From the NCBI RefSeq assembly GCF_036323495.1, contig NZ_AP028947.1, forward strand, positions 1,116,001-1,180,000: DNA of 64,000 nucleotides. The letters are read 5' to 3'. The notes below the pieces were generated by a model. It saw nothing but the letters and a program-made list of their open reading frames with translations, was not told the origin of the DNA and made no database searches. Shown here piece after piece: positions 3,391 to 62,365 of this stretch. Source of the DNA: Limnobacter thiooxidans (GTDB taxonomy: Bacteria; Pseudomonadota; Gammaproteobacteria; Burkholderiales; Burkholderiaceae_B). Both the position numbers and the translations under genes were made by a program. Within the stretch, counting starts at the first letter, position 1, and the number at the start of each line of letters is the position of its first letter.

Positions 3391-4788
3391 TTGGCTGCAA
3401 GCTTTTTTGTATGCCTTGCAGTGGTTTTGCTGGTCGGACTAAGTTCCGCCCGGCAAGCCAAAGCCAGTGCGGCTGATTACTTTCTCGCCAGTCGCACTGT
3501 TCCACCCTGGCTGGTGGGTTTGTCGGCTGTGGCCACCAACAATTCGGGCTACATGTTCATCGGCTTGATTGGATATACGCACGCTGTGGGCATTCAATCC
3601 ATTTGGTTGATGGTGGGCTGGATCACTGGTGATCTGATTGCCTCAAGAATTGCCCATGAACGCATGCGAGACGAGGCTGAGCGTGTCCAGGCGAACGGCA
3701 TCATCAGCCTGTTGGCACGCTGGGGTGGAAATCACCACCGCAGTTGGCAAATATTGGCGGCTTTGGTAAGCGTAGTGTTTTTGAGTACCTACGCAGCGGC
3801 TCAAATATCGGCGGGTGGCAAGGCACTGGAAGGCATGCTGGATATACCCATGGCGGTGGGCATGTCGATGGTTGCGCTCGTCGTGATTGCTTACAGCATT
3901 GCAGGTGGCATGCGCGCATCAATCTGGACAGATGCCGCGCAATCACTGCTGATGGTGGTTTCCATGGTGGTGTTACTTTGGGCAACAGTGTCACACCTTG
4001 GCGGAACAGAGGCCGTTCTGCAACAAGCAGCTGCTATTCCCGGTTTTTTGGACGCCAAGCCCAGTGGTCTTGAGTTGACAGGGTGGCCAGGCCCTGTGGC
4101 ATTTGTGGTCGGATGGATGTTTGCTGGCGCAGCCGCCTTGGGGCAGCCTCATATCGTCAGTCGTTTTCTCGCTTTGCAGCACACTCGGCAAATGAACCGG
4201 GTGCGGCTGTGGTACTACAGCTACTATCTCCTCTTTTATTGCTTTGCCACGACAGTGGGCCTGCTCAGCCGCCTTTATTTTGGCGATCACACGGGTTTCG
4301 ATCCTGAAATGGCATTGCCACACATGGCCCGCGAGCTTTTGCCACCTTGGCTGGCAGGGCTGATGCTGGCAGGTATATTTGCAGCCACCATGTCGACTGC
4401 CGATTCGCTGGTACTGTCCTGTTCTTCAGCGCTGACTCAGGACTTACCCAAAACACCCTCAGAGCAACGCTGGTTGCTCAAAGCGGCTACAGCCCTCGTT
4501 ACAGTGTTTGCTCTGCTCATTGGCCTAGTGAGTGAGCAAAGCGTGTTTTCTTTGGTGGTGTGGGCTTGGGGCACACTGGGCGCTGCTTTTGTTCCGGTTT
4601 TGATTTGGAAGGTTTGTGGGGCGCAATTAAGCTCTGTCAGCATGCTCTGTATGTCGGTCACAGGTGTTTCGGTCACTGTGGCCTGGAAGTTTTATGGCTT
4701 CCCCGACACGGTGTATGAGGGTGCTGTGGGAATGTCGGTCGCATTGGCTTTGGGATGTTTTTTATCCAGACCCCAGCTACGGTGGTAA
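3391..4788 (+). CDS. Sodium:solute symporter (SSS family), probable compatible-solute uptake
   Basis: A polytopic membrane protein of 465 aa with about 12-13 hydrophobic segments and SSS-type features: the N-terminal ADYFLASRTVPPWLVGLS segment, and the conserved GMRASIWTDAAQS and AGIFAATMSTADS stretches. It probably imports an osmolyte (ectoine, proline or a betaine) with Na+, inferred from its place 1 nt after ectD. The substrate cannot be read from the sequence. The only start before the first membrane segment is TTG at 3391: an in-frame stop lies at 3367 and there is no ATG or GTG between. Bases 4789-4940 behind it hold no gene and no clear terminator. Confidence 0.82.
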   Translation: MAASFFVCLAVVLLVGLSSARQAKASAADYFLASRTVPPWLVGLSAVATNNSGYMFIGLIGYTHAVGIQSIWLMVGWITGDLIASRIAHERMRDEAERVQANGIISLLARWGGNHHRSWQILAALVSVVFLSTYAAAQISAGGKALEGMLDIPMAVGMSMVALVVIAYSIAGGMRASIWTDAAQSLLMVVSMVVLLWATVSHLGGTEAVLQQAAAIPGFLDAKPSGLELTGWPGPVAFVVGWMFAGAAALGQPHIVSRFLALQHTRQMNRVRLWYYSYYLLFYCFATTVGLLSRLYFGDHTGFDPEMALPHMARELLPPWLAGLMLAGIFAATMSTADSLVLSCSSALTQDLPKTPSEQRWLLKAATALVTVFALLIGLVSEQSVFSLVVWAWGTLGAAFVPVLIWKVCGAQLSSVSMLCMSVTGVSVTVAWKFYGFPDTVYEGAVGMSVALALGCFLSRPQLRW

Positions 4789-26492: not shown

Positions 26493-27359
26493 TTAACGCA
26501 GTAGACTCAACACGTTATTGGGCAGCTGGTTGGCCTGTGCCAGCATGGCGGTACCGGCCTGTTGCAGAATCTGTGAACGGGTCAGGTTCGCAGTTTCCTT
26601 GGCAAAGTCGGCATCCATGATTCGGCCGCGGGCTGAACTCAGGTTGCTGCTAGTTGTTTCCAATGAACCCACGACCTGTTCAAGTCGACTCAAACCTGCA
26701 CCGGTTGTGGCGCGAAGGTTGGTGATGTCGTCAATTGCAGTGTCAATGGTGTCGATTGCGGTTTCTGCATTGGCCGCGGTGTCCACGCCACCGAAAGCCG
26801 TCACGATGGCTGCCTGTGTTGCGCCACCCAGGGTGGTTTGCAGATCGTTGCCGCCGGCAAGGCCGTCGTCAGTCAGGTTGACGTTCAAGGTGTCTGCAGC
26901 GTCATTGCCTGAACCAATCTGCAATTCAACGGATTTGTTTGCAGCTGCGAACACGTTGTTGTCGTTGAACGTGGTGCCTGTTGCAACACGGCCGACTTCG
27001 TTGGCCAGTTCCGTGAATTCACGGTTCAGGTTTGCGCGGTCGGTGTCGTTCAAAGTGCCGTTTTTGGCTTGTACGCCCAGTTCACGCATGCGCTGCAGGT
27101 TATCAGTGATTTTACCCAGGGCGCCATCTGCCACTTGCAGCAGTGAAATGCCGTCGTTGGCGTTGCGGGAAGCTACATCAAAGCCGCGTATCTGGGCGGT
27201 CATCCGTTCAGCAATCGCCAAACCGGCTGCATCGTCTTTCGAGCTGTTGACTCGCAAGCCGGAAGACAGGCGAGCGATTGAAGTTTCTAGGGAACCCGCC
27301 GATCTGCTCAGGTTTGTTTGTGCGCCCAGTGAAGGGGCGTTTGTGTTGATTCCTAACAT
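26493..27359 (-). CDS. fliC: Flagellin, type A (copy 1)
   Basis: 288 aa, a short flagellin made almost only of the conserved D0/D1 ends. N-terminus MLGINTNAPSLGAQTNLS with RLSSGLRVNSSKDDAAGLAIAERM; C-terminus ETANLTRSQILQQAGTAML and NNVLSLLR. The central D2/D3 part is largely missing compared with the 498-aa E. coli protein. It resembles the gene at 28765 much more than its direct neighbour at 27628, for example LSRSAGSLETSIARL and the ELQIGSGN segment. It has its own sigma-28 promoter and terminator. Confidence 0.96.
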   Translation of the reverse strand: MLGINTNAPSLGAQTNLSRSAGSLETSIARLSSGLRVNSSKDDAAGLAIAERMTAQIRGFDVASRNANDGISLLQVADGALGKITDNLQRMRELGVQAKNGTLNDTDRANLNREFTELANEVGRVATGTTFNDNNVFAAANKSVELQIGSGNDAADTLNVNLTDDGLAGGNDLQTTLGGATQAAIVTAFGGVDTAANAETAIDTIDTAIDDITNLRATTGAGLSRLEQVVGSLETTSSNLSSARGRIMDADFAKETANLTRSQILQQAGTAMLAQANQLPNNVLSLLR

Positions 27360-27458
27360 TTAGGACCTCCTTGCGGTTGAGTTGACAAAACCAGGTTTAG
27401 GGGTTTTTGTCGGTGTGGGTTAGGTAACCCTGCTCAGCTTCTCTTGCTGACACTACAA

Positions 27459-27485
27459 CTAACGGAGATGTTTTTCAAAAATGTA
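27459..27485 (-). promoter_or_regulatory. Sigma-28 promoter of flagellin gene 1
   Basis: On the minus strand, TACATTTT and TCCGTTAG are 11 nt apart, 11 of 16 matches to TAAAGTTT-N11-GCCGATAA, about 100 bp before the gene. It is the weaker member of the set, supported by the same arrangement before the other three flagellins. Confidence 0.55.
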
Positions 27486-27533
27486 TAGGGTTAATTCCTT
27501 TTATTAATTAATGTAAATTAAGTTTCAAAAACG

Positions 27534-27572
27534 AAATTGGATTATCCCCATGAAAAGGGGATAATCCAATTT
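27534..27572 (-). terminator. Long hairpin terminator after flagellin gene 2
   Basis: Arms AAATTGGATTATCCCC (27534-27549) and GGGGATAATCCAATTT (27557-27572) pair over 16 bp with a 7-nt loop. On the minus strand the hairpin is followed by TTTCGTTTTTG. It lies 55 bp behind the stop of the flagellin gene at 27628. Confidence 0.82.
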
Positions 27573-27627
27573 GGAAAAATCAAAAATCAGGTTTCTTGAT
27601 TTCAAAAATCAATTTTGCGAATCTGAT

Positions 27628-28491
27628 TTACTGCAACAGGCTCAGCACGTTGTTGGGCAACTGGTTGGCCTGGGCCAGCATGGCGGTGCCAGCCTGCTGC
27701 AAAATCTGTGAACGGGTCAGGTTCGCTGTTTCCTTGGCGAAGTCAGCGTCCATGATGCGTCCGCGCGCAGCCTGCAGATTGGTGCTGGAGGTGTCGGCAA
27801 AGGAAGCCACCTGTTCAAGGCGGCTTTGGCCCGCGCCCACCACAGCCCGAATGCCCGTGATGGCATCAATCGAGGCGTCCAGTGTGTCAATCGCCGTGGT
27901 GGCGTTGGCCACGTCGGTGATGGCACCGAGGTTGGTTTGAATATCGGCTGCGCCGTTGGTCAGGATGGTAGTCAGGTCGTTGCCTGTGCTCAAGCCGTCG
28001 TCGGTCAAATTCAATTCAAGTGTGTCGGTGGTGGCGTTGCCCGTGCCCACCTGGAAGCTCAGTGTCTGGTTGGCTGCATCAAACAGGTTGTTGCCGTTGA
28101 AGGTGCTGCCTGTGGTGATGCGGTCCACTTCGTTGGCCAGCTCCGTGTATTCACGGTTCAGGTTCACGCGGTCGGTGTCGTTCAGGGTGCCGTTCTTGGC
28201 CTGTACTGCCAATTCACGCATGCGCTGCAGGTTGTCCGTGATCTTGCCCATGGCGCCGTCAGCGACCTGGAGAAGAGAGATACCGTCATTGGCATTGCGG
28301 CCAGCCACATCAAAGCCCTTGATCTGCGCTTGCATGCGCTCGGCGATTGCCAGGCCTGCTGCGTCGTCCTTGGCGCTGTTTACACGAAGGCCAGAGGACA
28401 AGCGGGCGATTGAGTTGTTCAAACCCATACCTGAACCAGACAGGTTCTTCTGGGCGGTCAGTGATGCAACGTTGGTATTGATTCCTAGCAT
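27628..28491 (-). CDS. Flagellin, type B (copy 2)
   Basis: 287 aa, D0/D1-only flagellin. The N-terminus INTNVASLTAQKNLSGSGMG and the middle LSFQVGTGNATTDTLELNL set it apart from type A, while the C-terminal tail from RGRIMDADFAKETANLTRS is the same. It is nearly identical to the gene at 29971. Own sigma-28 promoter at 28560-28586, own terminator at 27534-27572. Confidence 0.96.
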   Translation of the reverse strand: MLGINTNVASLTAQKNLSGSGMGLNNSIARLSSGLRVNSAKDDAAGLAIAERMQAQIKGFDVAGRNANDGISLLQVADGAMGKITDNLQRMRELAVQAKNGTLNDTDRVNLNREYTELANEVDRITTGSTFNGNNLFDAANQTLSFQVGTGNATTDTLELNLTDDGLSTGNDLTTILTNGAADIQTNLGAITDVANATTAIDTLDASIDAITGIRAVVGAGQSRLEQVASFADTSSTNLQAARGRIMDADFAKETANLTRSQILQQAGTAMLAQANQLPNNVLSLLQ

Positions 28492-28559
28492 GATATTTCT
28501 CCAAGCAATTCAGTTGAGTTCATCGGGCTGCATCACTGTGTGTGCTGCCTCATGATTCC

Positions 28560-28586
28560 TTAACGCTTGAAAAAACAGGAACTTTA
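28560..28586 (-). promoter_or_regulatory. Sigma-28 promoter of flagellin gene 2
   Basis: Minus strand TAAAGTTC, 11 nt, AGCGTTAA: 12 of 16 matches to the FliA consensus, about 70 bp before the start codon. The leader lies in 28492-28559. Confidence 0.72.
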
Positions 28587-28764
28587 GAAAAAAATGCGAA
28601 AAAATTCACTTTCTCAAGAGAATTTTTGATAGCCCTCAAGTTTGCGGCGGGGGTGCCGTAATTGGGCCATTTTGTTTGAAACTTGGTCTGAACTTCCCCC
28701 GGTTTTCCAGTGCGTGTTGCAGGGTGCACTGTCAAACCAGGGGTCGCTCGGAGTGACTCTTCGA

Positions 28765-29631
28765 TTAACGCAGCAGGCTCAACACGTTGTTGGGCAGCTG
28801 ATTAGCCTGGGCCAGCATAGCGGTACCGGCCTGTTGCAGAATCTGTGAACGGGTCAGGTTCGCAGTTTCCTTGGCAAAGTCAGCGTCCATGATTCGGCCA
28901 CGGGCTGAACTCAGGTTGCTGCTGTTGGTTTCCAGTGAGGAGGCCACTTGTTCCAGTCGGCTCAAGCCAGCACCTACTGTAGAACGCAGGTTGGTGATGT
29001 CATCAATCGCGGTGTCGATTGTATCGATCGCAGTTTCAGCGTTGGCTGCGGAATCCACACCGCCAAGGGCTGTCGCGATCAGGGCCTGTGTTGCGCCACC
29101 CAGGGTGGTTTGCAAGTCGTTGCCGGTCGCTGTGCCGTCGTCAGTCAGGTTCACTGCCAAGGTGTCAGTTGTTTCGTTGCCTGCACCAATTTGCAATTCA
29201 ACTGATTTGTTCGCCGATGCAAACACTGTGTTGTCATTGAAGGATGTGCCTGTTGCAACACGGCCCACTTCGTTGGCCAGCTCCGAAAATTCGCGGTTCA
29301 GGTTGGCGCGGTCAGTGTCGTTCAAGGTGCCATTTTTCGATTGAACACCCAATTCACGCATGCGCTGCAGGTTGTCAGTGATTTTGCCCAGGGCGCCATC
29401 GGCCACTTGCAACAATGAAATACCGTCATTCGCGTTGCGGGATGCCACGTCGAAGCCACGAATCTGAGCGGTCATCCGTTCCGCAATAGCCAGGCCAGCT
29501 GCGTCGTCTTTTGCGCTGTTGACTCGCAAGCCGGAAGACAGTCGAGAGATTGAAGTTTCAAGGGAACCAGCAGATTTGCTGAGGTTCATTTGTGCGCCAA
29601 GTGAAGGTGCGTTGGTATTAATTCCCATCAT
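28765..29631 (-). CDS. Flagellin, type A (copy 3)
   Basis: 288 aa, starting MMGINTNAPSLGAQMNLSKSAGSL. A close relative of copy 1, differing at scattered sites in the middle (IGAGNETTDTLAVNL against IGSGNDAADTLNVNL). D0 and D1 are complete, so it should assemble. It lies between two type B genes. No clear terminator was found behind it in 28640-28764. Confidence 0.96.
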   Translation of the reverse strand: MMGINTNAPSLGAQMNLSKSAGSLETSISRLSSGLRVNSAKDDAAGLAIAERMTAQIRGFDVASRNANDGISLLQVADGALGKITDNLQRMRELGVQSKNGTLNDTDRANLNREFSELANEVGRVATGTSFNDNTVFASANKSVELQIGAGNETTDTLAVNLTDDGTATGNDLQTTLGGATQALIATALGGVDSAANAETAIDTIDTAIDDITNLRSTVGAGLSRLEQVASSLETNSSNLSSARGRIMDADFAKETANLTRSQILQQAGTAMLAQANQLPNNVLSLLR

Positions 29632-29715
29632 GATAGATTACTCCAAAAAAATCTTTACTATTAGTAAGAAGAGGGTGTCTTCTTGTTCGCCTCGGTGTTT
29701 GTCACCGATGTTTAT

Positions 29716-29742
29716 ATAACGTCTTTGGGGGATGAATATTTA
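29716..29742 (-). promoter_or_regulatory. Sigma-28 promoter of flagellin gene 3
   Basis: Minus strand TAAATATT, 11 nt, GACGTTAT: 11 of 16 matches, 85 bp before the gene. The surrounding leader is strongly AT-rich. Confidence 0.58.
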
Positions 29743-29786
29743 GCTTATTTTTGAAATATTTTTCAATTTGTTTTTTTACATTTAAT

Positions 29787-29839
29787 AAAAAAAACAGATT
29801 ATCTTTTTCATATTGTTAAATAAGAAAAAGATAATCTGT
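29787..29839 (-). terminator. Long hairpin terminator after flagellin gene 4
   Basis: Arms ACAGATTATCTTTTTC (29794-29809) and GAAAAAGATAATCTGT (29824-29839) pair over 16 bp with a 14-nt loop; an A8 run at 29787-29794 becomes a T-run on the minus strand. It lies 131 bp behind the stop at 29971 and ahead of the promoter for flagellin gene 3. Confidence 0.85.
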
Positions 29840-29970
29840 ATCCCGGCAGCTGCAAGCAAAAAATGAGGGGTGGATGCTTCCCACCCCCTTTAAAACAACC
29901 AGCTATCAGGAATCAGATCGCAGGTTGCTGCTTGGACTTCATACAACAGGTGATTCAATCAAATCCTTGT

Positions 29971-30834
29971 TTACTGCAACAGGCTCAGTACGTTGTTGGG
30001 CAACTGGTTGGCCTGGGCCAGCATGGCGGTACCAGCCTGCTGCAAAATCTGTGAACGGGTCAGGTTCGCTGTTTCCTTGGCGAAGTCTGCATCCATGATG
30101 CGTCCGCGTGCGGCCTGCAGGTTGGTGCTGGAGGTGTCGGCAAAGGAAGCTACCTGTTCCAGGCGGCTTTGGCCCGCGCCCACCACTGCCCGAATACCGG
30201 TGATCGCATCAATCGAGGCGTCCAGTGTGTCAATCGCCGTGGTGGCGTTGGCCACGTCGGTGATTGAACCCAGGTTGGCCTGAATGTCAGCGGCTGCACC
30301 GGTCAGGATGGTGGTCAGGTCGTTGCCTGTGCTCAAGCCGTCGTCGGTCAAATTCAATTCCAGAGTGTCGGTGGTGGCGTTGCCCGTGCCCACCTGAAAG
30401 CTCAGTGTCTGGTTGGCTGCATCAAACAGGTTGTTGCCGTTGAAGGTGCTGCCTGTGGTGATGCGGTCCACTTCGTTGGCCAGCTCCGTGTATTCACGGT
30501 TCAGGTTCACGCGGTCGGTGTCGTTCAGGGTGCCGTTCTTGGCTTGAACAGCCAATTCACGCATGCGCTGCAGGTTGTCTGTCATCTTACCCATGGCGCC
30601 GTCAGCGACCTGGAGAAGAGAGATACCGTCGTTGGCATTGCGGCCCGCCACATCAAAGCCCCTGATTTGCGCTTGCATACGCTCTGCAATGGCCAGGCCT
30701 GCTGCGTCGTCCTTGGCGCTGTTGACACGAAGGCCAGAAGACAGGCGGGCGATTGAGTTGTTCAAACCGATGCCTGAACCTGACAGGTTCTTCTGGGCGG
30801 TCAGCGATGCAACGTTGGTATTGATTCCTAGCAT
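29971..30834 (-). CDS. Flagellin, type B (copy 4)
   Basis: 287 aa, nearly the same as the gene at 27628 (differences such as GMGLNN to GIGLNN and TNGAADIQTN to TGAAADIQAN). It has the best sigma-28 promoter of the four (30918-30944), so it may be the main or first filament protein. That ranking is an inference from promoter match only. Confidence 0.96.
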   Translation of the reverse strand: MLGINTNVASLTAQKNLSGSGIGLNNSIARLSSGLRVNSAKDDAAGLAIAERMQAQIRGFDVAGRNANDGISLLQVADGAMGKMTDNLQRMRELAVQAKNGTLNDTDRVNLNREYTELANEVDRITTGSTFNGNNLFDAANQTLSFQVGTGNATTDTLELNLTDDGLSTGNDLTTILTGAAADIQANLGSITDVANATTAIDTLDASIDAITGIRAVVGAGQSRLEQVASFADTSSTNLQAARGRIMDADFAKETANLTRSQILQQAGTAMLAQANQLPNNVLSLLQ

Positions 30835-40965: not shown

Positions 40966-42096
40966 TTGGCCGAAGAAACAGATCAGGAAAAAGACTTACC
41001 CGCGTCGGAACAGAAGATCCGTAAAGCGCGAGAGGAAGGCAATCTGCCCCGGTCCAGAGAACTGGGTGGTGGTGCGGTGCTGTTGTCCGGGGTCGGCCTG
41101 CTGTATGCCATGGGCGGTGAGCTGGTTGGGCAAAGTGAAAAGCTGATGCGTCAGGGTTTAATGCTTGAGCGTGAGCATGCATTTGACACCAAATACATGG
41201 GGCTCAAGTGGGTGTCCATGCTGCAGGAAAGCCTGGTCATTCTGGTGCCGCTTTTCCTGGTGGTCGTGGTTGCCGCCATTCTGGCGAACGTGGCTTTGGG
41301 TGGACTGAATTGGTCCACCACGCCCATGGAGCCCAAGTTCTCCAAGTTGAATCCAATCACTGGACTGAAGAATATATTCTCAGTCAATGGTTTGGCCGAA
41401 CTGGTGAAAGCCATTCTCAAAACGGTGCTGCTGGGCGGGGTCGGGTATCTGCTGCTGATGCAGGACCTTGGTGAATTTACCCAGTTGTCCGCGATGCCGC
41501 TTGAACATGGCATGGCCGAAACCGCGCGAATTACCATCAAAGACGCTTTGATTCTGTCGATTGTGTTTCTTCTGATTGTGGCCATTGATGTGCCTTACCA
41601 GTTGTGGCGCTACTACAAAGGTCTGCGCATGAATCTGGAAGAACTCAAGCGTGAGTCCAAAGAGTCTGAGGGTGACCCCCACCTGAAAGGAAAAATCCGC
41701 AGCATGCAGCGCGAAGCAGCTCGTCGGCGGATGATGGCTTCTGTTCCCAACGCCGATGTGATCGTCACCAACCCGACTCACTACTCTGTGGCCTTGAAGT
41801 ATGACAAGGACGGCAAAGGTGCGCCACGCGTGGTGGCCAAGGGTATCGGCCCATTGGCCCTGAAAATTCGTGAAGTGGGCAAGGAACACAAAGTACCTAT
41901 GGTAGAAGCACCACCACTGGCCCGTGCCCTGTATTCCAATGTGGAACTGGAGCAGGAAATTCCCGGTGCCTTGTACACAGCTGTGGCCAAATTGCTGGCT
42001 TATGTTTATGCGCTGGCCGAGGGCAGGGGGCATTTGGTTGAAGTGCCAGGTGATTCGGACATTCCGAAAGGCATGGATCCAGGACCGGCGGCGTGA
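40966..42096 (+). CDS. flhB: Flagellar export switch protein FlhB
   Basis: 376 aa. Four membrane helices in the N-terminal half, then the cytoplasmic domain with the self-cleaving NPTH at 269-272 and the following VVAKGIGPLALKIRE. It switches export from hook to filament substrates together with FliK. The start codon is TTG at 40966 with AGGTG 8 nt upstream; the protein then begins MAEETDQEKDLPASEQKIRKAREEG, correct for FlhB. Normally flhA follows at once, but here a 757-bp repeat-bearing gap intervenes. Confidence 0.96.
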   Translation: MAEETDQEKDLPASEQKIRKAREEGNLPRSRELGGGAVLLSGVGLLYAMGGELVGQSEKLMRQGLMLEREHAFDTKYMGLKWVSMLQESLVILVPLFLVVVVAAILANVALGGLNWSTTPMEPKFSKLNPITGLKNIFSVNGLAELVKAILKTVLLGGVGYLLLMQDLGEFTQLSAMPLEHGMAETARITIKDALILSIVFLLIVAIDVPYQLWRYYKGLRMNLEELKRESKESEGDPHLKGKIRSMQREAARRRMMASVPNADVIVTNPTHYSVALKYDKDGKGAPRVVAKGIGPLALKIREVGKEHKVPMVEAPPLARALYSNVELEQEIPGALYTAVAKLLAYVYALAEGRGHLVEVPGDSDIPKGMDPGPAA

Positions 42097-42166
42097 TGAG
42101 CGTTATTGCCCATTCGCTCGGCGCTGCTGCCATGGTTCAATTTTGCTCCACTCGGCGCGAACCCCA

Positions 42167-42315
42167 ATCGCTTGCCGAAAACCTGTTTTTCCCTTTTTGA
42201 ATTTCACACTGACTCAACACACTCGACAAAAAGGGATGGTCGAGTGTGTTGTCGGCTTGCAGCCGAACGTGGCGTGTGAATTCAAACGGGCAGGTTTTCT
42301 GAAAGGCGAAGCGAT
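42167..42315. repeat. Large palindromic element 1 (flhB-flhA gap)
   Basis: A layered imperfect palindrome. Outer arms GAAAACCTG/CAGGTTTTC (42177-42185, 42291-42299) extend outward to ATCGCTT/AAGCGAT. Middle arms TTTGAATTTCACAC/GTGTGAATTCAAA. Inner arms CAACACACTCGAC/GTCGAGTGTGTTG (42215-42227, 42239-42251) enclose the loop AAAAAGGGATG. A side hairpin TCGGCT-TGC-AGCCGA (42252-42266) follows the inner stem. Core length 123 bp. Same design as elements 2-4 but different bases in the stems. No gene is supported inside. Confidence 0.85.
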
Positions 42316-42498
42316 CGGGATGTCGCTGCCGATTGGCCTTGAACCCGGCGGTGACTGGGTGTGGCAGTGGCTCTGAATGGGACTGTACCGCTGGCGTTTG
42401 AGCTGGGTCTGGTGCTGCTGGTACCACTGCATGTTTAGGGCTTCAGCGCCGTGGCTGGTGCGCGCATGCTGTCGCTGTTGGGCTGCCTGGTCAGTGGG

Positions 42499-42673
42499 CT
42501 TGCCTTTTCGCACATTCAAGAAAACCGCCCCGTTTGAACGAGGCTTGCATGTTCGCCAAGCGGTGAAACCGATGGCGACACATCAACCCGACCATCCTTT
42601 TGGTCGGGTTGATGTGAATGCAAAGCCTTGCTTCAAAAAGGGATCAAGCGGTTTTCAGTGCGGAACAGGCAAG
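42499..42673. repeat. Large palindromic element 2 (flhB-flhA gap)
   Basis: Outer arms GAAAACCGC/GCGGTTTTC (42520-42528, 42648-42656) extend to CTTGCC/GGCAAG. Middle arms TTTGAACGAGGCTTGCAT against ATGCAAAGCCTTGCTTCAAA. Inner arms ACATCAACCCGACC/GGTCGGGTTGATGT (42580-42593, 42602-42615) with loop ATCCTTTT. Side hairpin TCGCC..GGCGA (42553-42578) precedes the inner stem, so this copy is inverted relative to element 1. Core 137 bp. The stretch 42316-42498 between elements 1 and 2 holds no convincing gene. Confidence 0.85.
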
Positions 42674-42674
42674 T

Positions 42675-42730
42675 CACGACTAGTCAGCCTTCGACAATCG
42701 CATCAGCCTATCCACGACTAGTCAGCCTTC
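42675..42730. repeat. 18-bp direct repeat next to palindromic element 2
   Basis: CACGACTAGTCAGCCTTC occurs at 42675-42692 and again exactly at 42713-42730, a 38-bp period. It directly borders element 2. 42731-42853 then leads into flhA without a recognisable promoter or gene. Confidence 0.85.
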
Positions 42731-42853
42731 AAAAGCCGCAATAACCGCAACAGCGAAAGCAGGCAACCCAGCTCGCAATAGAGCCCTAAATCTGCCTCAG
42801 TTCCCCCATTAAAAAAACCTAAAGTTTTCCATAATTGAACCGTTAACAACTTG

Positions 42854-44974
42854 ATGGGCGGAATTGTGGCCTCCACCGCATTCTCACTGGACTTCATTAA
42901 AGCAGGCTTGGCCGGCGACAAGGTAAAAACCTTGGGCGCGCCAATCTTCATCATCATGATTCTGGTCATGATGATTTTGCCTGTTCCCCCATTCGCGCTT
43001 GACCTGTTTTTTACATTCAACATCGCGCTCAGCCTCATGGTGCTGGTTGCAAGCCTGTACACCACCAAACCACTCGATTTCGCTGCATTCCCGACCATTT
43101 TGCTGGTCACCACGTTGTTGCGTTTGAGTTTGAACGTGGCTTCCACCCGCGTGGTACTTATGCACGGCCACGAAGGGCCCGATGCAGCTGGCAAAGTGAT
43201 CGAGGCGTTTGGTCACTTCCTGGTGGGCGGAAACCTTGCAGTCGGTATTGTGGTGTTCGTGATCCTGATGTTGATCAACTTCGTGGTGATTACCAAGGGT
43301 GCTGGCCGAATTGCTGAAGTGTCTGCCCGTTTCACCCTCGATGCGATGCCTGGTAAACAGATGGCCATTGATGCTGATTTGAACGCCGGCCTGATTACTG
43401 AAGACCAGGCACGAACTCGCCGTGCCGAAGTCAGTCAGGAAGCCGAGTTTTTCGGTTCCATGGACGGTGCCAGCAAGTTCGTCCGTGGCGACGCCATGGC
43501 CGGTATCATGATCCTGATCATCAACATCATTGGTGGTTTTGCAGTCGGTGTCATGCAGCACGACATGAGCTTTGCCGACGCCGGCACCAACTACGTGCTG
43601 CTGGCCATTGGCGATGGTTTGGTTGCACAGGTTCCTGCACTGGTGATTTCCATTGCAGCCGGTCTGGTTGTGGCACGCGTGGGTCAGGGGCAGGACATTG
43701 GTACCCAACTGGCCAGCCAGTTGCTCAAGTCCCCACAGGCTGTGGGCATTACCTCGGGCATCATGGCCCTGATGGGCATTATCCCCGGCATGCCCAGCTT
43801 CGCATTCCTGTCACTGGCTGCCGGTTTCGGTTATTTGTCCTATCACTTGGCTTCCAAACCGGAAGTGTCCAAAGTGGCACAGAACACCGATGAACAAGCC
43901 AAGATCAAGGCCGCTACAACGGAAGCGCAAGAAGCTACTTGGGACGACCTGGTCCCCATCGACACCATTGCACTGGAAGTCGGCTACCGCCTCATCGCCC
44001 TGGTCGACAACAAGCAAGACGGTGATCTGCTCAAACGCATCAAAGCGATTCGCAAAAAGTTTGCCCAGGAAATCGGTTTTTTGCCACCAGCTGTGCACCT
44101 TCGCGACAATCTGGAATTGCGTCCTTCGGTTTACCGTATTTTGCTCAAGGGCGTGTGTATGGGTGAAGGCGAAGTATTCCCGAACCAGCACCTGGCCATC
44201 AACCCCGGCCGCGTGACCATGCAATTGCCTGGCCCACAAACTACAGACCCAGCCTTTGGTTTGCCTGCGGTGTGGATCAGCGATGATCAAAAAGAAAAAG
44301 CCAATGCAGCGGGTTACACCGTGGTGGATGCCTCCACTGTGGTGGCCACTCACCTGTCGCACATTTTGCAAACGTCTGCTGCCCAGTTGCTGGGCCGCAC
44401 CGAAACCCAGCAGTTGCTCGACCATTGCGCAAAAACGTCGCCCAAGGTGGTTGAAGACCTTACCCCCAAATTGCTCGATGTGGCTGTCATTCAAAAAGTG
44501 CTTCAAAGCCTGCTGGATGAAAGTGTTCACATTCGTGATTTGCGCAGTATTTTTGAGACCCTGCTTGAAAACGGCGCTCGCACCAAGAACCCGCTGGAAT
44601 TGACCGCTGCCGTACGTATCACCCTGGGTCGCGCCATTGTGCAAGCCCTGGCAGGCACCAGCGAAGACCTGAACGTACTGGTCATGGAGCCCAAGCTGGA
44701 ACAAATGATTACCCACGCGCATTCTGCCGCTGGGCAAGACCAGGTGGGCATTGATCCCAATCTGGCAGAAACTTTGGCCCGACAGGCCGCAGAGGCCGCA
44801 GGCCGTCAGGAACAACTGGGCCAGAGCCCGGTGTTGCTGGTCCCCGATGCCTTGCGCTTGTCCATGGCCCGCCTCTTGAAGCGTGCAGCTCCCAATTTGC
44901 GGGTCCTGTCGCACAGTGAAATTCCAGAAAATCGAACTATCCGCGTTGCGCAAGTCGTAGGAGCGAAAGCATGA
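42854..44974 (+). CDS. flhA: Flagellar export gate protein FlhA
   Basis: The largest export gate subunit, 706 aa: about eight membrane helices in the first half, with the FHIPEP-family stretch LRLSLNVASTRVVL and the cytoplasmic FHIPEP loop (GKQMAIDADLNAGLI, ARTRRAEVSQEAEFFGSMDGASKF). The C-terminal half is the nonameric ring. The start is ATG 42854 (a TTG lies directly before it at 42851); neither has a good ribosome-binding site. Overlaps flhF by ATGA. Confidence 0.95.
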   Translation: MGGIVASTAFSLDFIKAGLAGDKVKTLGAPIFIIMILVMMILPVPPFALDLFFTFNIALSLMVLVASLYTTKPLDFAAFPTILLVTTLLRLSLNVASTRVVLMHGHEGPDAAGKVIEAFGHFLVGGNLAVGIVVFVILMLINFVVITKGAGRIAEVSARFTLDAMPGKQMAIDADLNAGLITEDQARTRRAEVSQEAEFFGSMDGASKFVRGDAMAGIMILIINIIGGFAVGVMQHDMSFADAGTNYVLLAIGDGLVAQVPALVISIAAGLVVARVGQGQDIGTQLASQLLKSPQAVGITSGIMALMGIIPGMPSFAFLSLAAGFGYLSYHLASKPEVSKVAQNTDEQAKIKAATTEAQEATWDDLVPIDTIALEVGYRLIALVDNKQDGDLLKRIKAIRKKFAQEIGFLPPAVHLRDNLELRPSVYRILLKGVCMGEGEVFPNQHLAINPGRVTMQLPGPQTTDPAFGLPAVWISDDQKEKANAAGYTVVDASTVVATHLSHILQTSAAQLLGRTETQQLLDHCAKTSPKVVEDLTPKLLDVAVIQKVLQSLLDESVHIRDLRSIFETLLENGARTKNPLELTAAVRITLGRAIVQALAGTSEDLNVLVMEPKLEQMITHAHSAAGQDQVGIDPNLAETLARQAAEAAGRQEQLGQSPVLLVPDALRLSMARLLKRAAPNLRVLSHSEIPENRTIRVAQVVGAKA

Positions 44975-60702: not shown

Positions 60703-61680
60703 ATGGCAATCGGCAGAATCAGCACCAACCAGTATTTCAAGCTTAGCACTGACCGCATGAGCAAGCAGCAGACTGATCTGGTCAACATCCAGGGGCAATT
60801 GGCCACCGGGCAGCGCGTGCTTAAACCTTCGGACGACCCCTTGGCCATGTCGGTGGCTCTGGGTGCCAAAGCAGGCGTTAAAACCATTGACAGCTACCAG
60901 AGCAACATCACCTACATCAACAACCAGTTGGGTCAGATGGATGTGGCCTTGCAGTCCGGTTCAGACATCATGGTGTCCATCAAGGAAGCCTTCATGCAGG
61001 CCGGCAACGCTGCACTCAGTGCTGCTGACCGGGAGATCATCGCCCAAGACATCGAAGGCCGCATGGAAGAACTGCGGGGTATCGCCAACCGCACCGACGC
61101 AAACGGCTATTACATGTTCTCCGGCACCTTTCAAGATCAGGAGCCGTTTCAGGCCCCAGGCGGCGCTGTCACCGGAACCTTTCTTGAAACCACCACAGCG
61201 GCTGCGGCCGAGGCTGTGACTGGCCGTGAAATTCAAGTGGCCAGCGGGCGTTTCGTTAACCTGAACATCACAGGTCAGGATGCGTTTGTCGACCCTGAAA
61301 CCAATGAAGATGCATTTGCGGTTCTGCGTGAGGCTGTGGCCTTGTTGCGCACCCCAGGCTTTCCGAATGGACAGGAAGGGGCAACGCCGCAGGATACATT
61401 TCTGAAAGCATTCAATGCCAAAGGCGCACAACTGGACAATGTGTTTGATCAGGTACAAATTTCCAGAACCAAAGTGGGCGTGCGCTTGCGCGAGGTGGAA
61501 ACCTTGCAGCAGATCAACCAGGCGGCCCAATTGGAGCTGGAGCGGGTTGCAGGCGAAGCGGTGGGGCTGGATTATGCCAAGGCCATCAGCGAGCTGTCAC
61601 AGGGCCAATTACAGCTTCAGGCGGCGCAGCAAAGCTTTGCCAGCACATCGAAACTGACGTTGTTCAACTTCATCAGCTAA
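60703..61680 (+). CDS. flgL: Hook-filament junction protein FlgL (HAP3)
   Basis: 325 aa. It starts with RISTNQYFKLSTDRMSKQQTDLVNIQGQLATGQRVLKPSDDP, the FlgL/flagellin-like N-terminal helix, and ends LSQGQLQLQAAQQSFASTSKLTLFNFIS. Last gene of the flg operon; no simple terminator follows, but a large palindromic element begins about 80 bp later and could serve. Confidence 0.96.
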   Translation: MAIGRISTNQYFKLSTDRMSKQQTDLVNIQGQLATGQRVLKPSDDPLAMSVALGAKAGVKTIDSYQSNITYINNQLGQMDVALQSGSDIMVSIKEAFMQAGNAALSAADREIIAQDIEGRMEELRGIANRTDANGYYMFSGTFQDQEPFQAPGGAVTGTFLETTTAAAAEAVTGREIQVASGRFVNLNITGQDAFVDPETNEDAFAVLREAVALLRTPGFPNGQEGATPQDTFLKAFNAKGAQLDNVFDQVQISRTKVGVRLREVETLQQINQAAQLELERVAGEAVGLDYAKAISELSQGQLQLQAAQQSFASTSKLTLFNFIS

Positions 61681-61761: not shown

Positions 61762-61927
61762 TTACTCAGCCTGCGCACAGAAAACCGCTGTGTCCCTTTT
61801 TGAACGAAGACTTTGCATTCACACAGGCCCGACAAAAAATATGGTCGGACCTGTGTGTCGCGCTTAGCGCGACCATGCAAGCCTTGTTCAAACGGGGCGG
61901 TTCTCTTGAAGTGCGCAGTCTGAGTAA
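61762..61927. repeat. Large palindromic element 3 (after flgL)
   Basis: Outermost arms TTACTCAG/CTGAGTAA (61762-61769, 61920-61927), then CTGCGCAC/GTGCGCAG, then GAAAACCGC/GCGGTTCTC (61780-61788, 61897-61905). Inner arms CACACAGGCCCGAC/GTCGGACCTGTGTG (61820-61833, 61844-61857, one G-T pair) enclose the loop AAAAAATATG. Side hairpin TCGCGC-TTA-GCGCGA (61858-61872) follows. Orientation as element 1. Core 126 bp. Confidence 0.85.
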
Positions 61928-62170: not shown

Positions 62171-62365
62171 GTAAAACTGGATTTGCAAGTGTTCGCACGC
62201 TGCCCAATCAGAAAACTTGCCGACTTTGTGCGCAGGGCCTTGCGGTCGCGAAGCGAAAGCCAGGACCCGACCATGTTTTTTGTCGGGACTGGCTTAGCGA
62301 GGAACAAGCGCAAAGGCGAAATGCCAAGTTTTCGGGCAGTAGCGACACTGCAAATTCGGTTTTTA
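62171..62365. repeat. Large palindromic element 4 (before the NarL-type regulator)
   Basis: Far arms GTAAAACTGGATTTGCA (62171-62187) against TGCAAATTCGGTTTTTA (62349-62365). Outer core arms GAAAACTTG/CAAGTTTTC (62211-62219, 62325-62333). Inner arms AGCCAGGACCCGAC/GTCGGGACTGGCT (62258-62271, 62282-62294) with loop CATGTTTTTT. Side hairpin TCGC-GAA-GCGA just before the inner stem. Orientation as element 2. Core 123 bp, the same length as element 1. Confidence 0.82.

Follow-up and report, generated by a model that had tools for sequence, protein, structure and literature searches.

What occupies the space between flhB and flhA in Limnobacter thiooxidans, and does it matter to either gene? The window analysed here comprises 64,000 nucleotides (positions 1116001-1180000 of the single 3,536,915-bp contig); coordinates within this length refer to the window and larger ones to the genome. 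flhB (40966..42096, + strand; Pfam PF01312) ends before the first of two layered palindromes that lie in the 757-bp gap in front of flhA (42854..44974, + strand; Pfam PF00771). A sequence-only reading had taken these palindromes for members of an ERIC- or BIME-like family held in shape by compensating changes, and had proposed that – by separating two genes that normally touch – they may set the level of the flhA transcript.

The core of palindrome 1 (42177..42300, + strand, defining the family orientation C+; covariance model score 122 bits) consists of outer arms GAAAACC/GGTTTTC, middle arms with TTTGAA, an inner hairpin (13-bp stem plus loop at 42215..42251, + strand; arms 42215-42227/42239-42251) and a side hairpin (42253..42265, + strand, from sequence and fold); together with further outer arms, which are weaker and partly repeated, it spans approximately 42120..42370 according to the fold and an outer-arm test. 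Palindrome 2 faces it: the core (42519..42657, - strand, orientation C-; 113.4 bits) has a 16-bp inner stem plus loop (42579..42616, - strand; arms 42579-42594/42601-42616) and a side hairpin (42553..42578, - strand, again from sequence and fold), and with its outer arms extends by the fold over approximately 42450..42720, overlapping two 38-bp tandem pieces at 42661-42736. These limits are approximate since a lenient-score alignment overshot; folding of the window places the start of the palindrome arms at about 42120 and their end at about 42720.

Folding of the two palindromes beats all 200 dinucleotide shuffles on either strand (z -5.7, -6.9, -10.5 and -9.7), the entire flhB-flhA gap has a folding z of -7.8 (versus 20 shuffles), and when the window is simply searched for stems of 11 pairs or more, 11 turn up, compared to 1 and 2 in two shuffles. 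The sole match from an Rfam search of window positions 41000-44000 has an E value of 4.1 and 18 bits, where the gathering score is 75. The initial description thus stands in outline – two layered palindromes of one design, with side hairpins and T-rich loops, in opposite orientation – and needs correction in its measurements. The loop form was given as CATnnTTTTTT, though in palindrome 2 the loop is CATCCTTTT; the inner stem, put at 13-14 bp, is 13 bp in palindrome 1 and 16 bp in palindrome 2; the cores are 218 bp apart rather than some 180 bp; and the arms continue beyond the ends originally drawn, both in the window fold and in 82/90 genome copies (scoring above the best shuffled flank, with one shuffle per copy).

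Two gaps in the window exceed 700 bp, and each contains a facing palindrome pair. The second pair, very likely elements 3 and 4 of the sequence-only reading, is made up of a third copy (C+; 61779..61906, + strand; 122.4 bits), which follows a gene with a flagellin N-terminal domain, and a diverged fourth copy facing it (C-; 62210..62333, - strand; 40 bits), to the right of which lies a gene for a LuxR-type response regulator on the - strand (Pfam). The gene directly before this pair (60703-61677) encodes a 325-aa protein in which the flagellin N-terminal domain is the only match. Elsewhere in the window, four consecutive flagellin genes on the - strand (26496-30834; 287-288 aa, each with Flagellin_N and Flagellin_C) are separated by spacers with ordinary terminator-like hairpins.

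Within the L. thiooxidans genome, BLAST (queries included) gave 40 long matches to palindrome 1 and 20 full-length matches to palindrome 2; once oriented alike (palindrome 1 plus, palindrome 2 minus) 33 matches align, and 15 of 26 stem pairs in the alignment show changes on both sides. The covariance model built from these 33 copies, with a core of 127 model positions, recovers at least 90 copies at 57 sites (E<=0.01), the number being a lower bound with 150 of 1683 candidates scored. Across 77 matches in 48 loci, 95.8% of structure cells are paired, a share biased upward by the fitting of the alignment to the model; double-change cells number 334 as compared to 99 (s.d. 11) in 500 shuffles that keep relatedness in, and shifting the partner by a single base causes pairing to fall to 40-52%. 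The covariance-model scan that had been suggested at the outset thus reveals many further intergenic copies with covarying stems rather than an isolated pair, and the likeness to an ERIC- or BIME-like dispersed intergenic family, with the inverted pair as its unit, is upheld.

Analysis of the arrangement of copies shows that, among neighbours less than 2 kb apart in this genome, 31/33 face one another (C+ followed by C-), one pair is ++, one is -- and none points outward; in other Limnobacter records 47/48 neighbours are facing. The facing pairs of L. thiooxidans are separated by a median of 186 bp. Twenty-eight copies lie outside facing pairs: among the 25 inspected (68159, 451226 and 3386405 were left out), 15 are flanked on their free side by a palindrome of a different type, detected by both of its arms, with 10/25 going without assignment. 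Spacers between palindromes of this second type contain 7-bp tandem runs (e.g. CGACCTG, CTGCGGT) after position 3567 of record L159 and 3395 of record L154, where they follow genome positions 2642443 and 1848769, respectively; a similar run is present in genus genome G004 (L373).

By our in-house gene caller the 57 clusters are intergenic, with one overlapping a predicted gene. Flanking genes are convergent at 39 sites, co-directional at 17 and divergent at one. The background sample – 264 kb made up of the window (chosen for this finding) and ten spaced 20-kb stretches, containing four of the sites and called with thresholds slightly different from those used for the site set – has 228 junctions, 25 convergent, 25 divergent and 178 co-directional, of which copies occupy 3, 0 and 1, respectively: convergent junctions are strongly enriched among the sites (Fisher 1e-17), and the corresponding value for divergent junctions is 0.04. 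Of 36 gaps of at least 200 bp in this sample, the four with the lowest folding energies per base are the four that bear copies. The sites are evenly spread on the chromosome (KS p 0.29). Two further candidates were rejected: the 3.9 kb between copies 1088235 and 1092271 are not one element but separate two distinct sites, and the MFS gene between 68159 and 69808 is an ordinary gene, present in the nearest MAG too.

Palindrome 1 with its outer arms finds BLAST matches in the L. thiooxidans genome and in 11/15 other genomes of the genus, and none in eight genomes of other genera in the family or in 16 genomes of the order. The model matches 12/16 genus genomes, L. thiooxidans included, with 90 copies in the latter, 90 in G009, 20-58 in nine others and two in G004; there is no match in G002, G010, G014 or G015. 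When stricter filters were applied to 121 genomes of the family, five matched – all Limnobacter – and none did from 42 other genera. A 19-base pattern matched at least 119 stretches of GTDB contigs, from which 80 loci were taken: these belong to Limnobacter, to MAGs named Burkholderiales or Gammaproteobacteria, and to six distant singletons, all six without a model match. Carriage by plasmids, phages or viruses was rejected, given that palindrome 1 with its arms has no match among plasmids or phages and the 19-base core pattern no exact match in viral contigs. Among the listed Limnobacter papers on repeats and palindromes, no title or abstract opening gives an account of such elements, and we know of no name for the family.

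Are the sites themselves shared between species? The 80 GTDB loci contain 83 clusters: 40 match both flanks of one L. thiooxidans site, 34 match one flank and nine (six of these being the distant singletons) match none. Thus 74/77 plausible Limnobacter clusters touch sites known from L. thiooxidans; as a control, 1/20 genes not adjoining a copy matched such a flank.

The sequences at these sites behave differently: copies tend to resemble other copies from their own genome more than the same-site copy in another species. For 54 copies from 34 of the 40 doubly matched clusters (weak matches left out), compared to all L. thiooxidans copies, 50/53 with a same-role L. thiooxidans counterpart have another L. 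thiooxidans copy that is closer than the one at the same site. Because a best match chosen from nearly 90 other copies is biased towards those copies, rank was used: the median rank of the same-site counterpart is 33, where a random one would come close to 44. In a tree comprising 193 rows (90 L. thiooxidans copies plus 103 of 127 matches, with weak, cut-off and duplicate rows left out), all of them short and self-complementary, label changes for species number 73 versus 93-103 in 100 shuffles, and for site 119 versus 125-134; when the nearest MAG is removed the values are 56 versus 77-85 and 105 versus 104-113. For the left/right role label the changes number 62 versus 56-71. Adding three strong rows from L277, L280 and L282 gives 70 versus 96-106 for species and 115 versus 125-136 for site (54 versus 80-88 and 103 versus 105-115 without the nearest MAG). 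On these sequences the genome signal is strong and the site signal weak, perhaps not nil. New in these results is that sites are common to species, but that likeness in sequence goes with the genome more strongly than with the location.

Comparison of seven sites with the nearest MAG gives an indication of tempo. All but 2849796 keep at least one core at 86-96%, and in 6/7 sites at least one core is kept as well as, or better than, the outer arms: exchange is therefore not fast. At site 2849796 the inner layer differs on both arms and the outer arms are kept, which makes it one clear case of inner-layer replacement.

Gain and loss can be followed at two junctions. The nadB-nadC gap, measured in 15/16 genus genomes with palindromes judged by eye, holds a full pair in 2/15 (799 bp in L. 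thiooxidans, 689 bp in G009) and partial ones in gaps of 334 bp (fused), 327 bp (left palindrome gone) and 193 bp (half). Gaps in the other main-clade genomes measure 124, 76, 72, 63, 61 and 14 bp, and those in the outgroup (assigned by lower FlhA identity, 76-81%) 32, 24, 19 and 19 bp (G004, G014, G015 and G002, respectively). Of 11 flhB-flhA gaps, six contain two model matches (L. thiooxidans, G005, G006, G008, G011 and G012), several of them weak (28.8-43.8 bits); one copy is left in G007 and none in G001 (approximately 118 bp); in G003 the gap holds an orphan ORF (364 aa, no Pfam match; L175, 2811-3905); and G004 and G014, lacking a good model match, have palindromes of other sequence. No target duplication is evident by eye between empty and filled gaps at the two junctions, the spacers being strongly diverged, and neither a mobilising enzyme nor a target duplication nor a recent insertion was found. 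The tight outgroup junctions and half-deleted pairs suggest old insertions that are decaying in place.

The palindromes of G004 and G014 deserve separate mention. The pair in the flhB-flhA gap of G004 has no model match, and fragments of it, 32-60 nt long and 80-91% identical, form nine additional facing pairs, all confined to that genome; 3/8 sites fold as two large domains of similar size. The palindrome-like stretch (by eye) in the flhB-flhA gap of G014 gives 44 BLAST pieces within G014; its inner part has partial relatives of approximately 20-140 nt in ten other genus genomes, L. thiooxidans among them, so that some relation between this family and the others exists. Folding is strong at twenty G014 sites (-0.38 to -0.51 kcal/mol per base), most of which form a single domain, and an inverted-repeat search at three of them revealed no pair layout. 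Sites are convergent in 14/20 cases in G014 and 5/8 in G004, and at least one flanking gene is common to an L. thiooxidans site in 6/20 and 2/8, respectively, versus 1/20 control genes. That one genus should contain two sequence families without relation to each other, both laid out as facing pairs, calls for a common cause.

The best explanation overall, and one we consider rather likely to be right, is a bipartite intergenic element that stems from old insertions and whose sequence is kept up at the level of DNA. The locus would be a single non-autonomous element: two back-to-back layered palindromes, facing, usually with no gene between them, each with a core of approximately 125 bp that outer arms bring to roughly 200-270 bp. 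Such elements would have been inserted into tight gene junctions, chiefly convergent ones, in an ancestor of the main Limnobacter clade, and would now be mostly static or lost by deletion. Copies within a genome may swap inner layers by recombination or gene conversion, via the conserved layer borders, and template switching at the replication fork may keep both arms of each palindrome matched; a strong host function would be absent. We read the family as a BIME/ERIC-like element homogenised by conversion. Weighing against this explanation are the lack of any mobilising enzyme, target duplication or recent insertion among the findings, a terminal loop slightly better conserved than the inner stem, the chance that shared sites are useful ones, the slow pace of exchange, with no conversion caught in progress, and the weak site signal in the tree. 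ERIC, as presented in the part of PMC2229807 cited here, is 127 bp long, intergenic, and forms a long stem-loop when folded. Likened by description, the Limnobacter palindromes share with ERIC and with MITEs (RUP, Correia/NEMIS) a similar core length, an intergenic position and the long stem-loop; they differ in that the unit is a facing pair, that no target duplication was identified, and that among the genomes searched they occur in Limnobacter only.

An alternative is that the pair serves the host at the 3' ends of genes: the transcribed palindrome would be a terminator, insulator or mRNA stabiliser that separates convergent genes. The neighbours are suitably oriented (C+ after a + gene, C- ahead of a - gene's end, as a rule no further off than 50-160 bp), RNA folding is strong, sites are kept across species – shared sites could also mean useful sites – and an intrinsic terminator ahead of the core is missing from 75/95 facing gene ends. 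Element-free convergent ends, however, have intrinsic terminators about as rarely (7/42 versus 19/78; with a stricter score, 6/42 versus 7/78), in a comparison weakened by the fact that element-free convergent junctions are mostly shorter than 90 bp; with no clear difference between the two, replacement of terminators was rejected. Nor does a T-run follow the hairpins in the window (by eye), the full nadB-nadC pair is restricted to 2/15 genus genomes, and one genome is without the flhB-flhA pair.

Mismatches in the stems bear on the same alternative. Structured RNAs tolerate G·U pairs. Isolated stem mismatches comprise 23 G·U and 57 A·C in L. thiooxidans copies (3995 Watson-Crick pairs) and 19 G·U and 58 A·C in other copies (4619 Watson-Crick pairs), counts for which inherited columns make a finer reading unsafe. 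That G·U is rarer than A·C argues against selection on the C+ strand transcript; the pattern would be compatible with pairing on the opposite strand or with an absence of RNA selection. For the inner stem alone the counts are 32 and 48, in a test spoiled by indels. Compensating changes had originally been taken to mean that structure is conserved: the paired changes are real, but selection for structure is doubtful, and template switching or DNA-level conversion accounts for the pairing no less well. According to PMC8794818, template switching can both mend hairpin arms and give rise to them. The hairpins described there resemble those of Limnobacter in having paired changes with few G·U intermediates, and differ in that the cited part concerns RNA genes, whereas the Limnobacter palindromes are intergenic DNA with inner-layer exchange between sites too. 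Ten terminal-loop columns are conserved slightly above the inner stem (1.40 versus 1.23 bits), against a general pattern in which unpaired columns are less conserved than paired ones (1.08 versus 1.32); the better-kept loop might point to present or past recognition of the hairpin. On this evidence we judge a 3'-end device unlikely.

Rather less credit goes to a reading that would make the palindromes a fixed network of sites in which a dedicated folded-DNA process swaps inner layers, such that location and sequence are inherited separately; a second lineage would have its own, unrelated facing pairs, and the sites would sometimes take up foreign gene pairs. The partial relation of the G014 family to others, and the weak site signal that remains, make it slightly less probable.

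Marginally more doubtful again is that the palindromes are hairpin recombination sites, at which a putative recombinase would swap inner hairpins and move cassettes as at folded attC sites. The inner-layer exchange at one site (2849796) would agree with this, as would the genes enclosed by facing palindromes at two sites with wide spacing: those for an NlpC/P60 and a lipoprotein-like protein in L062 (2848-3799; genome 3291847-3292798), and a YaeF/YiiX-type amidase (Peptidase_C92) with a secreted-looking protein in L061 (2726-3888; genome 2842725-2843887). A DUF3828 protein and pieces of an amidase-like gene lie beside an unpaired copy in L166 (2214-2944; genome 1460713-1461443), and the flhB-flhA gap of one species is filled by the orphan ORF. 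Going by domain names, we would guess that the cargo consists of effector and immunity gene pairs. At the same site the NlpC/P60 cargo is present in L244, fragmented in L227 and missing from L243, L283 and L287. However, only 2/31 facing pairs in L. thiooxidans have an insert of more than 450 bp, and the sole insert edges compared, those of the NlpC/P60 insert versus the nearest MAG, show by eye a GCAAT repeat only, as deletion predicts. Integron attC sites are imperfect hairpins with consistent asymmetries. The Limnobacter palindromes, likened to them by general description, are also imperfect, asymmetric hairpins, and a few sites lie beside small foreign-looking genes; unlike attC sites they are inverted rather than direct and stand at chromosomal gene ends, with no cassette array seen.

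Very improbable, in our estimation, is a REPIN-like family moved in trans by a Y1 (RAYT) transposase. REP/REPIN sequences, in the parts of PMC3116915 and PMC1525189 cited here, are extragenic palindromes in inverted pairs, with a preference for convergent junctions and many copies per genome; the Limnobacter family is likewise composed of inverted extragenic doublets with convergent preference and many copies, a likeness it shares with BIMEs. REPs, however, measure 20-40 bp (PMC3733652, in the part cited), and the Limnobacter units are several times longer: palindromes of at least 125 bp with nested layers and a side hairpin, and with copies at sites common to several species. The two movers that had been put forward are not borne out, and both were rejected: RAYT (Y1_Tnp) has no match in the L. 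thiooxidans genome and matches in 1/16 genus genomes (the E. coli control was positive), and reverse transcriptase has no match in the L. thiooxidans genome and matches in 5/16 genus genomes. With Y1_Tnp missing from 15/16 genus genomes, REPIN-like movement is largely refuted, unless the family spread first and the enzyme disappeared later. Finally, that unrelated sequences pair by chance is refuted by the shuffled folds, the at least 90 model matches, the covariation and the outer-arm test, all of which stand against it.

What, then, of flhA? The notion that flhB and flhA normally touch is contradicted by all 11 gaps that were read, where the minimum is approximately 118 bp. About 30 bp preceding flhA are largely conserved in these 11 gaps, the palindrome-free one included, whatever lies upstream; by eye they contain a conserved leader (42820..42847, + strand) with what we take, from the consensus, to be a sigma-28-like promoter of flhA. 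A role of the pair in setting the level of the flhA transcript is unsupported, the promoter-like leader being kept even in the palindrome-free gap, and so is any effect of the palindromes on flhA expression. As part of the bipartite-element explanation, and with the same degree of confidence, we regard the flhB-flhA pair as an ordinary member of its family that needs no role in flhA expression.

For the family as a whole, the finding is of a bacterial repeat that holds its position from species to species, with sequence in common chiefly among the copies of one genome. It also urges caution against equating covariation with RNA selection: strong base-pair covariation alone does not show a functional RNA. 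The upkeep of long palindromes – whether by template switching, conversion or selection – is thereby made testable in a cultured bacterium.
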